NCBI GenBank assembly: GCA_039619475.1
Contig: CM077115.1
Location: 40,796,944-40,860,943 of the forward strand
DNA from: Icerya purchasi
Taxonomy: Eukaryota > Arthropoda > Insecta > Hemiptera > Monophlebidae
Reading direction: 5' to 3'
Length of the DNA stretch: 64,000 nucleotides
Below the pieces are notes generated by a model that had not been told where the DNA came from, made no database searches, and worked only from the letters and a program-made list of their open reading frames with translations. Positions within the stretch are counted from its first letter, which is position 1, and each line of letters begins with the position of its first letter. This document shows positions 4,136-64,000 of this stretch, piece by piece. Position numbers and translations under genes: made by a program.

Positions 4136-4894
4136 ATGTTTACTGTCAGTACGTTCTTGAACAGTGTATATTCCAAATTTTTTATTTTAAATTTACATCG
4201 CAACATATACACTATGATTAAATATTTAAATCAATCGGAAGCAATTAATATCGACGAAGAATTATTTACTAGCTATAAATATAGTGTTAACCAGTTAATG
4301 GAATTAGCCGGGCTAAGTTGTGCCAGCGCTATAGTTGACTGTTGTCCGGATAATAAAAAGGTATTGGTTATGTGTGGACCGGGAAATAATGGTGGGGATG
4401 GTCTGGTTTGTGCTCGTCATCTAAAGTTATTCGGATTTCATCCGGACATATTTTATCCGAAACGAACAGATAAACCGTTATACAAGAATTTAGCTCATCA
4501 GGCCGAGGCTATGAATATACAGTTTGTGGATCTGCCTTCTATAGAAGAAATGAACACTAAATATGATCTAATTGTAGACGCTTTATTTGGATTCAGTTTT
4601 AAACCTCCTGTTCGTCCTGAATTTTCTGACGTAATAAAGAATTTGGAAAAAACAACAACTCGTATCGCTAGCGTAGATATACCTAGTGGTTGGAATGTGG
4701 AAACCGGTAATTCGTCTACAGGAGGAATCAATCCAGATATACTGATCTCGTTAACAGCTCCTAAATTATGCGCTCGTAATTTTCAGGGACGATTTCATTA
4801 TTTAGGTGGTAGATTTGTACCACCAGAGTTGGAGAAAAAATATGACTTACAATTGCCCGCATATCCTGGCATACAATGCTTTGTAAAATTGTAA
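4136..4894 (+). CDS. NAXE: NAD(P)H-hydrate epimerase (AIBP/YjeF_N family)
   Basis: Encodes 252 aa without an intron. The family epimerises the R form of hydrated NAD(P)H to the S form, so that the partner dehydratase (NAXD) can restore NAD(P)H. Visible landmarks are the start of the YjeF_N domain ([15 protein letters not shown], about residues 30-44), the nucleotide-binding loop GPGNNGGDG (81-89), DALFG (148-152) and the DIPSG block with Asp181. Residues 1-26 are hydrophobic and basic with no acidic residues, like a mitochondrial presequence. Met27 (base 4214) would give a cytosolic form beginning exactly where the conserved domain begins. Length fits the family once presequence variation is allowed. 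No AATAAA lies close downstream. A lone exon could mean an old retrocopy, but there is no poly(A) tract or flanking duplication and the frame is intact. Confidence 0.95.
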
Positions 4895-47000: not shown

Positions 47001-50000
47001 TGCACTCTGACATTGACCCTATTCCATTACCTCCAAATGAGGGTCATATCAAGCCTACATCTCCACTGGAAGTCGCCAGACTCATAGACAATCTAGCAAT
47101 CTAGCACTGCACAAATCTCCAGGTCTTGATGAAATTCCGACGATCATATATCGTGATCTACCTAGAAGAGGCATAGTATTCAACGCAGCACTACGTATGA
47201 GACATGTGCCGTTATCGTGGAAAGCAGTCAAAATGATTGTCATATTGAAACCAGGAAAACCCTCAGAAGACCCGTCCTCGTATCGTCCTATTTCGTTGCT
47301 TCCTATCATAGCGAAACTTTTTGAAAGAGTGGTACTTAGTAGAATACAAATTATCATCATATGGAAAAAGATGCTAACAGATATACAGTTTGGTTTTCGT
47401 CATAAACACTCAACGATCGAGCAGATCCATAGAGTTGTCCACTCTATCTCGCAGGCTCTCGAAAATAAAGAGTACGCCCCAACAGCGTTCTTAGACGTCA
47501 GTAATGCCTTTGATAAAGTCTGGCACAAAGGCCTTCTTCATAAAATCTCTCCCCACTTTCCTGCTCCTCTAAGACTGCTGATATCATCCTACCTATCCCG
47601 ACGTTCCTTCCAAGTATTCATCGGAACCGTACATTCCGGTACTCACCCAATAGCTGCAGGCGTTCCTCAGGGCAGCGTCCTTGGCCCTACTCTTTTCTTA
47701 TTATATACCATGGATATTCCTCAAGCCTGCAATGTCACGACAGCGCTCTTTGCAGATGACACAGCCGTAACAGCGTGCAACATAAATTATGACACTGCAG
47801 TCAGTAATCTCCAAAATGCGGTCAATCAAATATTCACTTGGGCCTCGCGGTGGAAAATAAAACTGAACCAATCGAAGTCAGTTAGGGTTGACTTCGCGCT
47901 GCGCCCTCACCACTACACTAATACGATCATCGAAAGTTCTCCGGTCCCTACTGCCAGTCATGCACGCTATCTAGGTCTACACTTGGACTGCAAGCTCAAT
48001 TGGCAGGATCATGTTAGCGCCAAAAGAGACCTCCCAAACATGCAGTTCGACCGGTTCCACTGGCTTATTGAACGGCGATCAAATCTCAGCCTGGTCAACA
48101 AGAAGCTGCTCTACACTACGATATTCAAGCCCATGTGGACTTACGGATGCGAGCTCTGGGGAACCACTCGCGATTCAAACAGACTTATTATTGAGCGGTT
48201 CCAAAACAAATTTATGCGAACAATAACGAAGGCCCTGTTTTATTTCACAAATGACCAGCTCCGTAGGGATCTCGAGTTGGACTCCATCAGTGAGACGATC
48301 AGGAAAAAGTCAACCCGTTACGTACAGAGACTTCATAATAATACCAACACGGAGGTCGTACAGCTCCTGGATGACCAAAATAACACACGCCGATTGCGAA
48401 GACGAACTTCGTTTAATGTGACTAGTCGTAACTCCGTTTATGTAACCTACTTTAAATAGTGCTAGCCACTTCCTTTAAATCGCCCGTGTACTCCTCTTTG
48501 TTCTAATTTGGTAAATGCTGTACTAATTTAGCAGATCCGAATAAAAATTAATGAAAAAAAAAAAAAAAATTAGGAAAAATATATATTTTTTTTTTTATTT
48601 TTATTTAGGTTGCAAGGTAAAATATACATGACCTATAGAAATAAAGAAACGAAGTATACTAAAGAAAAATATGACAAGAAATAACACTGATATTCGAAGT
48701 ACCGCCCCGAAACTCACTGAAGGAGACTAACGAAAACATAAAGCACATATATAATCCAGTCAATTAAACAATTATAAAAACCACTACGAATGGTATTTCA
48801 GTAAAAATATACATATTTCAATATGTATAAAGAGCACGTATAAAACACTAGAAAATGTACCGACTTATAATTACAGCAGACCATATTGAGAAAATCGATC
48901 ATCCGAAAGCAATAGATGAAATATGATTTTGGGTACATGCAAGTGAGTGATCGAACCGATTCGTTGTTAATAATAACTTGATGACTATTAATACAATGTA
49001 AAAGCATAGTCCGCAGTGCGTGTATAAAATAAAATACCACACTAATTATGTGCATAAAAAGAAAAATTAAAGGACACTTAGAAACAGAAAAACTAAACCA
49101 GATATAAATTGTAAATAAACTTTTGTTGGCTAATTTCATCTTAAAATTGAGAAGTAGAACAGTTAAAGAAAAGAAAATTTGGTAATATTCATGTACGAAT
49201 TTTGTAGAAGACATCAGAGAAGTACACCAGTGCACCACACTAGACGGTAATGTGAAAAATATGTAACTACTGTTCAAAAAATGGACTGAAATGTTCGTAA
49301 ACAATACCTAATGATTAAGAAAAAGCGAAAAAAAAATACCATCATAAAAACCAAAAAATTGTTTAAAAAGAGTAAAAATATTTAGTACATGTGAAAAACT
49401 AAAAATAAGATCTAGTAAAAAAGATAAGAATTCTTTAATTGTTCATAAAGAATCAAAAAAACTATTGCCACTCGACGAAATATGATATTTCATCAAATAG
49501 TTAAAAAAGTCACAATATTTCGGTAATTTAAGCAAACGTAATTTGTTAATATTTACCGATAAATTTGACGAGCCAATTCCCTGGTAGGACTCACTATAAG
49601 AGCTCTAAATCCACCAGTTTTGCGTCGGGCTAACTTATGAATTATAGGAACCAAAAATGCTACAGTTTTACCGGAACCGGTAGGAGCACAAGCTAATATC
49701 TGGCGATCCTAACAGGAAAAATAATTAAATATAAAAAACCATAACAAACGTTCTAAAAAAAAAAAAAAAAAAAAAAAAAGTCTTTTTCAATAAGACAATT
49801 AAGAAGCTTTTAATGTTCATCTGATCTACAAACAAATTACTTACTTCCAACATAACTGGAATAGCTTGCATTTGAATTGGCGTTGGTGAACTATAGCATT
49901 CTTTAATATTCTTTAGTAAAGTATTAGAAAGTTTATACCTCTTCGTTAAATCTTCGAATGTGCATATAGGAGCAGGTACACCTTTTCCGGAAACATTTAT

Positions 50001-57746: not shown

Positions 57747-57941
57747 TTAACGTTTTCTGCGTAACTGGAGAGAATTCCTTCTGATCCAGGATGCTCGTCT
57801 GGAACCTCCTGTTGTATGCGAGTAACCATGTCCTTTTCCGAGTCCACGGGATTTGCGGCCGGCGGAAGTCTTACCTCTTAATTCACGATGTTTATGAACA
57901 GGTTCACAAACCCAATTAATTTTTGGATCTGTTCGAATAGC
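57747..57941 (-). CDS. RPL15: 60S ribosomal protein L15, last coding exon (partial gene)
   Basis: The minus strand encodes the C-terminal 64 residues of eL15. It starts [20 protein letters not shown], continues with [20 protein letters not shown] and ends [17 protein letters not shown] before TAA. The match to animal RPL15 is unmistakable ([27 protein letters not shown]). eL15 is a core rRNA-binding protein of the large subunit, near the 5.8S/28S domains. The exon begins at phase 0 after a TTTATTTATGTAG acceptor. The preceding exons are not in the window, so the intron is at least 6.06 kb and hosts the snoRNA array. Poly(A) signal at 57706. Confidence 0.97.
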
Positions 57942-60050
57942 CTACATAAATAAAATTTAAAACAATGTAATATATTCTTAAATTAATAATGTTTTCTAAA
58001 GGAATGGTGGCTAACTAATTGAACATCATTGTTCAAGATAATGTGTAAATAAATAAAAATTTCACGTTTTAATTTTTTATTTGTATTATATTTTTGCTAG
58101 TTATGCAGGGGGGAGGATGAGTCGCACGCACATTCACTTATTTGTCCTGATGGTAGATTATTGACATAATTATTTGGATTATTGTTGATAGTGTATAATT
58201 TATTGTATAGTTTGTTATTGGTATAACGTAATATTTGACGTGCTTTTCGGAAGATATTAAAAATGTTCTAAATCAGCGGATTAAAGTAAAATTTTGCACA
58301 TTGCATATTATTAGTTCAGTTGTTTGATATTTGTTTTTAAAAAAATATATTTCCTTTGTATTCGTTATTTAGGTGTGTAATTGTTATTTGTTGTAATGTG
58401 TTTCGATGAGTCTATTCTTCAATTGTATGTTACCGACATAAGTGGGCTAAGCATTAATAACGATATATGTCGATGTGCGTTTCCCGAATATTTCGTATTG
58501 TAATGATTTATTATTTAATGTTATTTTAAATCAAAAAGGTTAATTATTTTGTGGTCATTTTCTATAGTATATTATACGTTATTGTTTATTGAATTAAAAA
58601 AAATTAAGAAATAGTTTATCGTAATTTATGTTATTATTAGTAACATATACATCAAATATCATCAACACATCTAATGCAAAGTAGGATGTTATAATTTCAA
58701 AATTTATTACATATATTATCTTCGTAGTGTTGATAAGTGTTTCAATTGATAAGCATTTATTCTAAATATAGACTTTGTTTTTAATTATGAAATAATAGTA
58801 TTTATAGTATCAAGAAGTTGGCTAGTATAACATGGGTCATTCACATACTTGAACATATTATATTCAAATTTATGTTTCGAGTTCCTATTTTTTGATGCTA
58901 AAATGCTTGTTACTGATTAGGTATGGTATTGTTTAGCTCTATTCAATTTAAATACATTTACAGCCAAATAAAAACACCTGCAAATAATTCAATTATTTTT
59001 GTAAAATAGATTATTTATATATATATGCGTTTTTTTGTATAATTTCTTATAAATCTGAATCACATTTACTCTACAATCTCGAACTATACAATGTAATGCA
59101 AATATCACTAGAGTATATCTTCAATAGCTCGCAGAACATTTCATTCTTTTTCAAATTAAGAATTTCAAAATTTAACAATCAAGAAAATTTTAGTATAATT
59201 TACAGACTAACTCTTAATTGTCCTTAGAATCAAAAGAATCCTTTCACAAATAATGCAATTCAGTTTATATTTAAACATTAATTTAATCCTAATAATAATT
59301 CTAAATATCGGCGGCAAACTTTCCATAATTTGTTCCTTTTTTTCTTTTTTATGTTATCATTATATTTAATTTTTGAAAATAGTGTTATAATATTGCTAAT
59401 GGCAATATGTAACAAGATGCTTCTTTACCAAAGTAAGTCTATTTCGATTTCACAAATCCTCAATTTTACGATAATTTAATGAAATAGTTAATTCCTGTGG
59501 TACGATATATTTCTTAAATGTCTTAATTTCCCCGCAATACCTAAAGACACGAACAGATCCAAATACAGTCCTTCCTTTAAGGCCACTTCAATTTCAGTTA
59601 CAAATCGAGATAGTTTATAATTAAAAGCTGATTGCACTTACATATTCTCATTTCTTATCATAAAGATTGCTCGCTGTTATTTTGCTTATCGTTATTAACA
59701 AATAATATACAAATCAAAAAGGGGCTCAATACTAATAATAAACAACGAATTTTATACTTGGTTATTACTTGTTTATGCTAAAGTTTTATATGGAATTAAA
59801 TTATTTCAACGCTTGAAAATAACCTACTCATTGAACCACTCCATTATTAGTACGAAGCAACTTTAACAGAGACACTTACATCATGTTATTTCATGACCCT
59901 GCACTATACGTAATTATTATTTATCCGGCTTAATCATTTTCATCTTAAATAGGAAATCAGTCAAAAGCTAATGAGGTTGTTATCACCGAATATTGCAGAA
60001 ATAAATAAAAAAAAAATCATAAAAATATATAATACATATCGCGTATTTTG
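57942..60050 (-). other. RPL15 intron, snoRNA-free 3' part
   Basis: About 2.1 kb of A+T-rich intron between the last exon and the first snoRNA copy. No exon, C/D box RNA or transposon that I can support. Confidence 0.5.
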
Positions 60051-60134
60051 GATGCCTTCAGAAAGTAGTTGGTGATAATATTCGTCAGATTTATTTTCAG
60101 ATTGGTGCATGGTTCACTTTCATCATAAGGCGTT
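60051..60134 (-). ncRNA. Box C/D snoRNA copy 1 (18S G1328-type guide)
   Basis: 84 nt, minus strand. C box ATGATGA at 60120-60126, D' box CTGA at 60097-60100, D box CTGA at 60058-60061. The D' guide contains CCATGCACCA. The D guide is CACCAACTA, nine pairs to 18S instead of ten. The terminal stem is damaged: the 5' side reads AACGCC against GGCATC, leaving about four pairs. This copy is nearest the RPL15 exon, its flanks are unlike the tandem unit, and it may be an aged copy. Confidence 0.8.
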
Positions 60135-60273
60135 AAAAGAATTTATAAAATTATTTTTATAAAACATTCAAATGGGAAATGTAATAGATTATTACCTTTT
60201 ATTAAACGTTCACTTAAACGAATAATATGCTTTCATAATAAAAATCACTATAAATAATTTTCTTTCGTAAACT

Positions 60274-60686
60274 GCGATTAATACTAGCAATGGCAAAGTA
60301 AAACAAGCCACTGTATATTACTTACATGTTTTATTCCTGTTATATTAATAATAAATAAAAGTTCGCAACGTATAACATTAATTATCTTGAACAGTATAAA
60401 ACACAAAATCACACAAAAATGTAATATATAAAAAACGTAAAATAATACAGCAGTCTGACCGGATTATTTTTATTTAGACGTAGCCATGAATATGTCTAAA
60501 TAAAAAGACGAAAGCGGTCGGACTGCTATATTATTTTACGTGAGTTTGTGTTTTATACAGTTCAAGTTAATGTTATACATTGCGAACTTTTATTTATAAT
60601 TAATACATATAAGGGAAATATAACAATTACGTAAGTGCATATAAAATGATTTGTTTTACTTCGCCATTGCTAATAATAAAAATCGC
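60274..60686. mobile_element. Foldback palindrome between snoRNA copies 1 and 2
   Basis: Two inverted arms of about 190-200 bp meet near 60485. Shared blocks include AGCAATGGC(A/G)AAGTAAAACAA at the outer ends, AATAAAAGTTCGCAA(C/T)GTATA in mid-arm, and GCAGTC(T/C)GACCG with TATTTAGAC towards the centre. No coding capacity. Part of the RPL15 intron, so the pre-mRNA would carry a long hairpin whose feet lie about 140 and 60 bases from snoRNA copies 1 and 2. Probably a foldback-type transposon or an inverted duplication; no clear target duplication. Confidence 0.75.
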
Positions 60687-60747
60687 TTTTAAGCCGATCA
60701 TATTTTGCGTTTATTTAAGGTTATTGTGAAAAAATTTAGTTAATTTG

Positions 60748-60831
60748 GATGCCTTCAGAAAGTAATTGGTGATAATGTTCGTCAGAATAATCTTCAGATT
60801 GGTGCATGGTTCACTTTCATCACGAGGCATT
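60748..60831 (-). ncRNA. Box C/D snoRNA copy 2 (18S G1328-type guide)
   Basis: 84 nt, minus strand. C box GTGATGA (60817-60823), a permitted R-U-G-A-U-G-A form. D' box 60794-60797, D box 60755-60758. Terminal stem five of six pairs (AATGCC against GGCATC). D' guide unchanged. The D guide has one change that turns a pair into a G-U wobble. Flanks differ from both copy 1 and the tandem unit, yet all boxes keep their offsets, which points to selection on the RNA. Confidence 0.88.
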
Positions 60832-61256
60832 CCATAACTATAGTGCGGTTTAATTTTGAGAACATTTCAGATTATAAACACAAATAAATATAAAACATAT
60901 TACTCCGCTCGGGCGAGTCGTAAGAAGTTAAATAATAGGTATTCAACATTTAAATCAGCGAAGACAAAAAAAAAAAAAAAAAAAAATGGAAATGAAAATA
61001 TTAGACTACTTGGAAAATAAATAAACTAGCCGTCGAATAACAAAAGAATGAAATTCAATTGAAAAATCTAAAAGAAATAATTATCGTTTGAACTTGTATT
61101 TAAAGAAATTATGTATCAATATTCGTTTAAAAATAAATTTTTTGTTTCGGAGAATGAAGCATATAATTTTCGACGCGTCACTATAAATTAACATTATTTT
61201 ATTTAAACGAAAAAATGATTCTGGTTATAACAAAATTCATTTATATTCGTCGGATG

Positions 61257-61340
61257 GATGCCTTCAGAAATTAGTTGGTGATAATATTCGTCAGATTTAT
61301 AATCAGACTGGTGCATGGTTCAATTTCATCATGCGGCATC
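61257..61340 (-). ncRNA. Box C/D snoRNA copy 3 (first in the tandem array)
   Basis: 84 nt, minus strand. C box ATGATGA (61326-61332), D' box CTGA (61303-61306), D box CTGA (61264-61267), perfect six-pair stem GATGCC/GGCATC. The base two positions upstream of the D' box is G instead of A, outside the 10-bp 18S match. Both guides intact. Confidence 0.92.
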
Positions 61341-61834
61341 TTTAATTACAGCATTTATGACATGAAATTTAAATTTTCGATTATAACAGCCAGATATTTT
61401 TATATACTTCTTTTTATTAGTATTTCACCAATCGTTAAACTACCTTACATCTCATTCAAATTTAAAATCTAATTTTAATTTGCCGTCGTCAACAATTGAA
61501 AATCAATCACAGCATTAGCAGTGGAACACCCAAACCTTTAAATTATAATAATGGATAATATAATGCACAACCTTTTTGAATAGAAGAAAATTAGTTATTA
61601 TCATTTTTTATAGAAATGTATGTAACAGGATGCACTTTTTTTTTTTTAAATAAATTTTGCCATGTCTTCTAAAAATGACTCGATAATGAATGTACGAATA
61701 TCCGTTTAAAAACAAATTTTACGTTTGGGGGAATGAAGTATATTATTTCGACGCATGGTTACCACAAAATAAATTATTTTATTTAAATGAAAAAATGATT
61801 AGAGTATATAATAAAATTTAATTTGCATTCGCTG

Positions 61835-61918
61835 GATGCCTTCAGAAATTAGTTGGTGATAATGTTCGTCAGATTTATTATCAGATTGGTGCATGGTTCG
61901 ATTTCATCATACGGCATC
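61835..61918 (-). ncRNA. Box C/D snoRNA copy 4
   Basis: 84 nt, minus strand. All boxes and the six-pair terminal stem are intact at the same offsets as its neighbours. The only differences are outside the guide and box positions (for example CGAATTT replaces the common TTGAATT beside the C box spacer). Confidence 0.92.
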
Positions 61919-62408
61919 TTTAATTATAGCATTCATGATATGAAAATCAAATTTTTGATTATAATTGGTTCCTTCCGTTCTTTCTTTTTTATTTTTTTGT
62001 ACTGGTGTTTCATTAATTAATAGATTACCTCACATCTTAATCAAATTTAAAATCTAATTGAACTTTGCCGTTGTCGGCAATTGAAGAATCATAATCACCG
62101 CATTAGCAGTGTAACACTCAAACCTTTAAATTATAACAATGGATAATACAATGCACAACCATTTTGAATAGAAGAAAATTGGTAATTATCATTTTTTATA
62201 GACGTAACAGGGTGTATACTTTTTTTTTTTAAAATAAATTTTGCCATGTTTTCTTAAAATGACTGTATGAATATCCGTTAAAAAACATATTGTTTTAGGG
62301 AATGAAAGAAATATATTATTTGGACGCATGGTTACCACAAAATAACATTACTTTATTTAATTAAAAAAATGATTCTAGTATATAATAAAATTAAATTTGT
62401 ATTCGTTG

Positions 62409-62492
62409 GATGCCTTCAGAAATTAGTTGGTGATAATATTCGTCAGATTTATTATCAGATTGGTGCATGGTTCAATTTCATCATATGGCATC
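62409..62492 (-). ncRNA. Box C/D snoRNA copy 5
   Basis: 84 nt, minus strand. C box ATGATGA (62478-62484), D' and D boxes CTGA, stem GATGCC/GGCATC, guides complementary to 18S TGGTGCATGG and TTAGTTGGTG. One change in the two bases between stem and C box. Confidence 0.92.
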
Positions 62493-62993
62493 TTTAATTA
62501 CAGCATTTATAATATGAAAATCAAATTTTTGATATTTGGTTCCTTTCTTTTTTTTTTTTTTTTTTTTATTGGTGTTTCACTGACTAATAGATTACGTCAC
62601 ATCTTAATCAAATTTAAAATCTAATTGTACTTTGTCGTTGTCGGCAATTGAATCATTCTTAATCACCGCATTAGAAGTGAAACACTCAAACCTTTAAATT
62701 ATAACAATGGATAATATAATGCACAACCATTTTGAACAGAAGAAAATTGGTAATTATCATTTTTTATAGAAACGTATGTAACAGGTGCACTTTTTTTTTC
62801 TTTTTAAATAAATTTTGCCATGTTTTCTAAATATGACTCAATAATGAATGTACGAATATCCGTTTAAAAACAAATTTTATGTTTTGAGGAATTAAGTATA
62901 TTATTTCGACGCATGGTTACCACAAAATAACATTATTTTATTTAAATGAAAAAATGATTAGAGTATATAATAAAATTTAATTTGTATTCGGTC

Positions 62994-63077
62994 GATGCCT
63001 TCAGAAATTAGTTGGTGATAATATTCGTCAGATTTATTATCAGATTGGTGCATGGTTCAATTTCATCATACGGCATC
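62994..63077 (-). ncRNA. Box C/D snoRNA copy 6
   Basis: 84 nt, minus strand, intact boxes, guides and stem. The sequence is identical to copy 7 across the whole RNA as far as I can read. Confidence 0.92.
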
Positions 63078-63580
63078 TTTAATTATAGCATTCATGATAT
63101 GAAAATCAAATTTTTGATTATAATTGGTTCCTTTCTTTCTTTCTTTTTTATTTTTTTGTATTGGTGTTTCGCTAATTAATAGATGACCTCACATCTTAAT
63201 CAAATTTAAAATCTAATTGAACTTTGCCGTTGTCGGCAATTGAATCATAACCACCGCATTAGCAGTGTAACACTCAAACCTTTAAATTATAATAATGGAT
63301 AATATAATGCATAACCTTTTTGAATAGAAGAAAATTGGTAATTATCATTTTTTATAGAAACGTATGTAACAGGTGCACTTTTTTTTCTTTTTAAATAAAT
63401 TTTGCCATGTTTTCTAAACATGACTCAATAATGAATGTACGAATATCCGTTTAAAAACAAATTTTACATTTTGGGGAATTAAGTATATTATTTCGACGCA
63501 TGGTTACCACAAAATAACATTATTTTATTTAAATGAAAAAATGATTAGAGTATATAATAAAATTTAATTTGTATTCGGTC

Positions 63581-63664
63581 GATGCCTTCAGAAATTAGTT
63601 GGTGATAATATTCGTCAGATTTATTATCAGATTGGTGCATGGTTCAATTTCATCATACGGCATC
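63581..63664 (-). ncRNA. Box C/D snoRNA copy 7
   Basis: Reference copy for this family: 84 nt, minus strand. The 5' stem GATGCC is followed by GT and the C box ATGATGA (63650-63656). The D' guide containing CCATGCACCAAT comes next, then the D' box CTGA (63627-63630). A spacer with a further CTGA (63615-63618) leads to the D guide containing CACCAACTAATTT, the D box CTGA (63588-63591), A and GGCATC. Counting five bases up from the D' box points to the second G of 18S TGGTGCATGG, the residue methylated by human SNORD32A (G1328), yeast snR40 and the fly Me18S-G1358 RNAs. It lies on the host-gene strand, so release by splicing and exonucleolytic trimming is expected. Confidence 0.94.
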
Positions 63665-64000
63665 TTTAATTACAGCATTTATAATATGAAAATCAAATTT
63701 TTGATATTTGGTTCCTTTCTTTTTTTTTTTTTTTTTTATTGGTGTTTCACTGACTAATAGATTACGTCACATCTTAATCAAATTTAAAATCTAATTGTAC
63801 TTTGCCGTTGTCGGCAATTGAATCATTCATAATCATCGCATTAGAAGTGAAACACTCAAACCTTTAAATTATAACAATGGATAATATAATGCACAACCAT
63901 TTTGAACAGAAGAAAATTGGTAATTATCATTTTTTATAGAAACGTATGTAACAGGTGCACTTTTTTTTTCTTTTTAAATAAATTTTGCCATGTTTTCTAA

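Follow-up and report, generated by a model that had tools for sequence, protein, structure and literature searches.

Several snoRNAs within one intron are unusual in animals, where one per intron predominates according to the available part of PMC11028025, which agrees with the description of this locus in the initial annotation as unusual for an animal. The likeness to plants proposed in the same annotation holds in part: plant clusters are usually intergenic in the portion of PMC11028025 at hand, although single-intron plant clusters are cited in the accessible part of PMC2656528. Intronic clusters are listed as a known class (PMC12205218, in its available sections), and in Drosophila the introns of 27 cytoplasmic ribosomal protein genes host snoRNAs (PMC2246290, likewise in part); the accessible sections of PMC6171561 and PMC9196750 held nothing decisive. 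In Plasmodium falciparum, the paralogous box C/D copies PFS15 and PFS16 share a target and lie in a single intron of the ribosomal protein gene RPS27a, a situation like that of our array, whereas PFS15/PFS16 comprise two copies with another target in a protist and our array comprises nine copies plus one decayed copy in an insect (PMC2656528, partial text). We propose, with a probability of roughly 0.85 for the reading as a whole, that intron 3 of RPL15 carries an array of a single box C/D snoRNA gene, nine of whose copies are intact and one decayed. In our judgment the snoRNA array is real and intron-encoded, and it takes a known arrangement to an extreme.

The window, that is, the whole 64,000-nucleotide stretch analyzed here (G000:C1:40796944-40860943), belongs to a 1.1-Gb genome of 1,103,370,081 bases in 41 contigs; coordinates above 64000 are window-extrapolated and were drawn from the next 40 kb of the contig. 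Within the window, RPL15 is represented by its last coding exon only (57750 to 57941, minus strand; residues 141-204), which was identified by eL15 chains (best E, 7.4e-26) and PF00827 (E, 2.8e-18) and has an ATGTAG acceptor, with the stop codon just below 57750. Joining this exon to the minus-strand coding exons at window-extrapolated 68439-68268, 68021-67885, and 65714-65604 gives one open reading frame of four exons and 204 amino acids, with GT-AG junctions in the genomic sequence. Intron 3 extends on the minus strand from 57942 to 64000 in the window and on to window-extrapolated 65603 (7,662 nt in total, G000:C1:40854885-40862546; donor, GTAATT), and it holds all ten segments, nine intact and one decayed. 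The placement of the snoRNAs inside a single RPL15 intron, as first annotated, appears right on this predicted gene model of four joined exons. Elsewhere in the window, the open reading frame at 4136-4894 encodes an NAD(P)HX epimerase; among the 120 matches listed, its named relatives were almost exclusively insects and other arthropods, and the first few of these named relatives shared 61-69% identity with it.

All nine intact copies lie on the minus strand. Two of them, c1 (60051 to 60134) and c2 (60748 to 60831), are old, with flanks that differ from those of the other copies; these are followed by the 84-nt copies c3 (61257 to 61340), c4 (61835 to 61918), c5 (62409 to 62492), c6 (62994 to 63077), and c7 (63581 to 63664) and, outside the window, by the intact copies c8 (window-extrapolated 64164-64247) and c9 (64751-64834, likewise extrapolated). 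The decayed copy c10 (window-extrapolated 65470-65521), near the intron donor site, keeps the C box and a remnant of the D' guide but has lost D' and D. Seven 84-nt minus-strand copies had been annotated, and these were found at the places given, but the total comes to nine that are intact and one that is decayed. Copies c6, c7, c8, and c9 are identical over 84 nt, whereas the older copies can be distinguished by their letters at positions 18, 33, 39, 40, and 55. Together the nine constitute an intronic snoRNA cluster, defined as at least two snoRNAs in one host intron on the same strand. When an 85-base query was compared with the whole genome, nine places were recovered, all within the array (9/9 candidates scored). 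Genome-wide patterns with zero mismatch permitted in their fixed letters likewise each matched 9 places, none of them outside the array, both for C box, D guide, and D (1 match for the reversed-pattern control) and for C box, D' guide, and D' (control, 0). The array is the sole source of these guides found genome-wide by such no-mismatch patterns; because no mismatch is tolerated, a diverged copy elsewhere could escape them, as c10 does.

In RNA positions, box C (RTGATGA) occupies 9-15, box D' (CTGA) 35-38, and box D (CTGA) 74-77, which matches the offsets annotated for these three boxes in the seven copies, and a C' box (CTGACGA) absent from that annotation lies at 47-53. Boxes C, D', C', and D are present in 9/9 intact copies; the D', C', and D boxes and the D' guide are invariant in all of them, and box C varies only between A and G at R. 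The terminal stem joining C and D has 6 bp in eight of the nine intact copies and 4 bp in c1. On the minus strand of c7, for example, box C (ATGATGA) lies at 63650 to 63656, the D' guide at 63633 to 63642, box D' (CTGA) at 63627 to 63630, box C' (CTGACGA) at 63612 to 63618, the D guide at 63595 to 63605, and box D (CTGA) at 63588 to 63591. C/D boxes near the ends, a terminal stem, an internal D'/C' motif, and an rRNA antisense element were all found, and this anatomy supports the identification of the copies as box C/D snoRNAs that are predicted to be expressed and bound by core proteins. The guide anatomy originally proposed is likewise supported by the boxes, the stem, the D'/C' motif, and two antisense elements. 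The RNAalifold structure of model R1 was not treated as a real fold.

A 9-mer complementary to the D' target occurred 7 times in the window, compared with 0.05 expected, and 0 of 100 shuffles reached 7. Scanning of both window strands for a C box, CTGA, and a stem of at least 5 bp gave 8 hits, comprising six copies and two unrelated matches, with c1 missed because its stem is 4 bp; a looser scan from 57500 to window-extrapolated 104000 gave 13, of which nine were the array copies, two belonged to a second snoRNA, and two were unrelated. For the second snoRNA, located in RPL15 intron 2, no convincing target was found in the rDNA stretch examined, which excludes the 28S 3' half. When the seven copies were used to build a covariance model, it matched them alone in the window, as it would be expected to recover the copies from which it was built. 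Counting against the reading, none of the Rfam families attained its gathering score at any place in the window; below threshold, RF00300, among several other box C/D families, matched all seven window copies on the minus strand (E, 8.1e-6 to 2.3e-3). With relaxed limits, the array region gave 58 Rfam matches, nearly all of them minus-strand hits to box C/D families, with RF00300 the best. The best scores were 39 bits for RF00300 (gathering, 44), 26.1 for RF00533 (gathering, 50), and 23.8 for RF01201 (gathering, 50). The E values of RF00533 and RF01201 were 0.0032 and 0.014 on one copy and 0.013 and 0.11 on another, respectively, and unrelated C/D families scored similarly (e.g., snoR53Y; E, 0.00039). 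The copies do not reach the gathering cut-offs of RF00300, RF00533, or RF01201 and were not filed in any of them.

The genome's own 18S was located with a eukaryotic 18S fragment from viral_contigs as the query and confirmed by RF01960 (L024:7207-9764; 2,558 nt). The D' element (CCATGCACCA) forms 10 Watson-Crick pairs with 18S positions 1701-1710 without a mismatch, and the D element (TCACCAACTAA) forms 10 Watson-Crick pairs and 1 G-U pair with positions 1717-1727, the two pairing sites being 16 nt apart. The D element has 9 such pairs plus 1 G-U in c1 and 8 plus 2 G-U in c2, and both copies are without the D-guide pair adjoining the target base. The targeted nucleotide follows from guide pairing by the fifth-base rule, under which the D' guide is predicted to point to G1703 and the D guide to U1718, located 15 nt downstream of G1703. 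Among 3000 mononucleotide shuffles of both guide stretches, D' reached 10 pairs in 85 and D did so in 71, and both guides reached at least 9 within 25 nt in 1 of 3000, so that pairing by a single guide would count for little as evidence, unlike pairing by both. This pairing supports the earlier reading of the copies as putative 18S guides, amended here to two antisense elements. The D' guide occupies the same position in the alignments of RF00533 (Me18S-Gm1358), RF01201 (snR40), and RF00300, and because the same guide lies directly upstream of D', the same 18S site is predicted as for these families. Comparison with these alignments supports the D' element as a putative conserved Gm1328-type guide, with G1703 as the probable equivalent of human Gm1328 and Drosophila Gm1358 (18S site tables in the available parts of PMC3511168 and PMC8817022). 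An early assignment of the D element as a Um1326/Um1269 guide (U33, snR55) was dropped because the RF00533, RF01201, and RF00300 alignments and the PFS1 sequence in the accessible part of PMC2656528 place the conserved site at Gm1328, which is reached by D'.

Nine guides would be carried on each RPL15 transcript and presumably transcribed together with RPL15; snoRNPs would assemble on intron 3 and then be released from it. The D'/C' half could thereby act in fibrillarin-directed 2'-O-methylation of 18S G1703, and the D element may hold or modify the 18S stretch 16 nt downstream. No counterpart of U1718, the target of the D element, is known to us. A two-headed guide, in which a new D element gained in this insect lineage would direct a second 2'-O-methylation at U1718 or lock that stretch during assembly, in addition to serving the Gm1328-type site, with nine snoRNPs freed by between-copy cleavage, is a speculative extension that we consider doubtful.

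The RNA segment is under constraint while flanks and spacers drift. When copies 1-7 were compared with 250-nt flanks, pairs including c1 or c2 were 86-94% alike in the snoRNA and 40-48% alike in the flanks, and in units 3-5 the snoRNA window scored 0.952 and the windows from column 84 onward 0.27-0.77. Across the nine copies, 3 of 43 positions in boxes and guides were variable versus 12 of 41 elsewhere (Fisher p, 0.010, in a test that treats sites as independent). Units 3-9 recur every 574-587 bp (unit 3, 509 bp), and Tandem Repeats Finder with a longest period of 500 returned no row. Spacer identity was 99.4% for units 6/8, 99.6% for units 7/9, and 94.1% for units 6/7; the near-identity of the 6/8 and 7/9 spacers suggests that these copies are young and that the most recent step was the doubling of a block of two units, about 1.17 kb long. 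On this comparison of units, the array evidently grew through local tandem duplication. Its stages of growth are visible in the old copies 1-3, the near-identical pairs 6/8 and 7/9, and the dead copy 10.

Amplification of the dosage of one 18S guide, or selection for it, is unproven, because local duplication under little selection on copy number would give most of the array. Even so, every one of the nine intact copies has retained its four boxes, and the D' guide is the same in all of them. A passenger expansion, in which the RNA comes from one copy or a few and the rest ride on unequal exchange in a big intron and later decay like c10, disputes only the dosage claim and not the identity of the RNA, and we hold it to be a serious contender at somewhat less than even odds. 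The existence of c10, the youth of units 6/8 and 7/9 implied by their spacers, and the spread of C/D genes via cis-recombination, as put in the available part of PMC11028025, are in keeping with it, but copies 1-3 are old and still retain the four boxes and the D' guide despite their diverged flanks.

How the copies of the proposed array would leave the intron bears on a second alternative. The distance from the end of a copy to the 3' splice site is 2.1-6.8 kb, and that from the 5' splice site to the start of a copy is 0.8-5.5 kb. In the release pathway described in the accessible part of PMC11028025, the debranched intron is trimmed back at each end. Since end trimming frees no inner copy, between-copy cleavage or long snoRNP-capped RNAs have to be considered. 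A search for a spacer hairpin as a cutting site, over sixteen 120-nt windows of one unit, gave one at a z of -3.6 with a fold not conserved across units. The lack of a conserved hairpin in the unit scanned is consistent with inner copies not being freed singly, such that exonucleases would be stopped by the outermost snoRNPs and long capped RNAs of the sno-lncRNA type would remain, besides or instead of nine guides, a known result when two snoRNAs share one intron (PMC11028025, in part). We find this improbable, as conservation is limited to the snoRNA while the spacers drift, and clusters in other groups are known to release single RNAs. A false duplication of units 8 and 9 in the assembly, suggested by their repetition of units 6/7 with 99.4-99.6% spacer identity, is very unlikely; units 8/9 do differ from units 6/7, and the question leaves the seven older copies untouched. 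The regular recurrence of units 3-9 might also evoke an intronic satellite resembling box C/D snoRNAs by chance, which is scarcely credible against constraint limited to the snoRNA, two paired guides, and a known D' guide at its known place.

In a limited literature that did not include the Drosophila snoRNA papers, no description of a guide present nine times within a single animal intron was found, and no priority is claimed. An intron with nine copies, whose spacers allow the units to be dated, offers a natural test of snoRNP number per intron. End trimming accounts for the release of one snoRNA, and the array could test the need for between-copy cleavage, as well as whether the level of methylation at a single 18S site is governed by copy number.

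Among known guides, the Gm1328-type guides (U32, snR40, Me18S-Gm1358, and snoR21) are like our array in that the guide points to the equivalent 18S G. In contrast to RF00533, RF01201, and RF00300, the array has nine copies, which score below the gathering cut-offs of these families, and, compared with their consensus sequences, only the array has a D element against 18S 1717-1727. Huang reportedly described intronic H/ACA clusters in Drosophila in 2004; several snoRNAs share an insect intron there as here, but the class is H/ACA, unlike the C/D class of our copies. Mammalian SNORD113-116 and rat Bsr resemble our array in that one C/D snoRNA has been amplified in tandem and its copies homogenized, whereas they are orphans in repeated introns of noncoding hosts and the array is a putative rRNA guide within one intron of a protein gene (PMC11028025, in its available part).

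The ribosomal DNA of the same genome was represented by a unit of approximately 14.5 kb within G000:C21:26801-43300 (contig C21 of the whole-genome set G000, covered by stretches L024 and L026). Of the 3401 positions of the LSU model, its 28S aligned only to 24-1455, in the initial portion; within the L024/L026 stretch, no match to the 28S 3' half reached gathering score, and a search for a known 28S motif was likewise negative.

In the window itself, a single open reading frame at 4136-4894, which served solely for placing the organism, constituted an NAD(P)HX epimerase gene, with relatives in PF03853, and a 420-aa open reading frame on the plus strand (47197-48459), judged by eye, reads like a LINE-type reverse transcriptase. 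A long imperfect palindrome (60278-60679) lay between snoRNA copies 1 and 2, matching its own reverse complement at 70.6% and folding with a z-score of -23 (20 shuffles). This palindrome, of which no further copies were detected within the window, is perhaps a MITE-like element.

Beyond the window's end, in the sequence carrying the rest of RPL15 (L012; window-extrapolated coordinates), a decayed, stop-containing duplicate of exon 3 (66296-66373) was situated inside a larger duplication of exon 3 and its surroundings, with 85-88% identity. RPL15 intron 2 also hosts a box C/D snoRNA, different from that of intron 3, in two minus-strand copies (66691-66754 and 65921-65985) located by box scan, with boxes identified in both. 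A genome search with a 96-base query returned these two places only, and one copy resembled RF00333 (snoZ157; E 0.0023), with a score below gathering.
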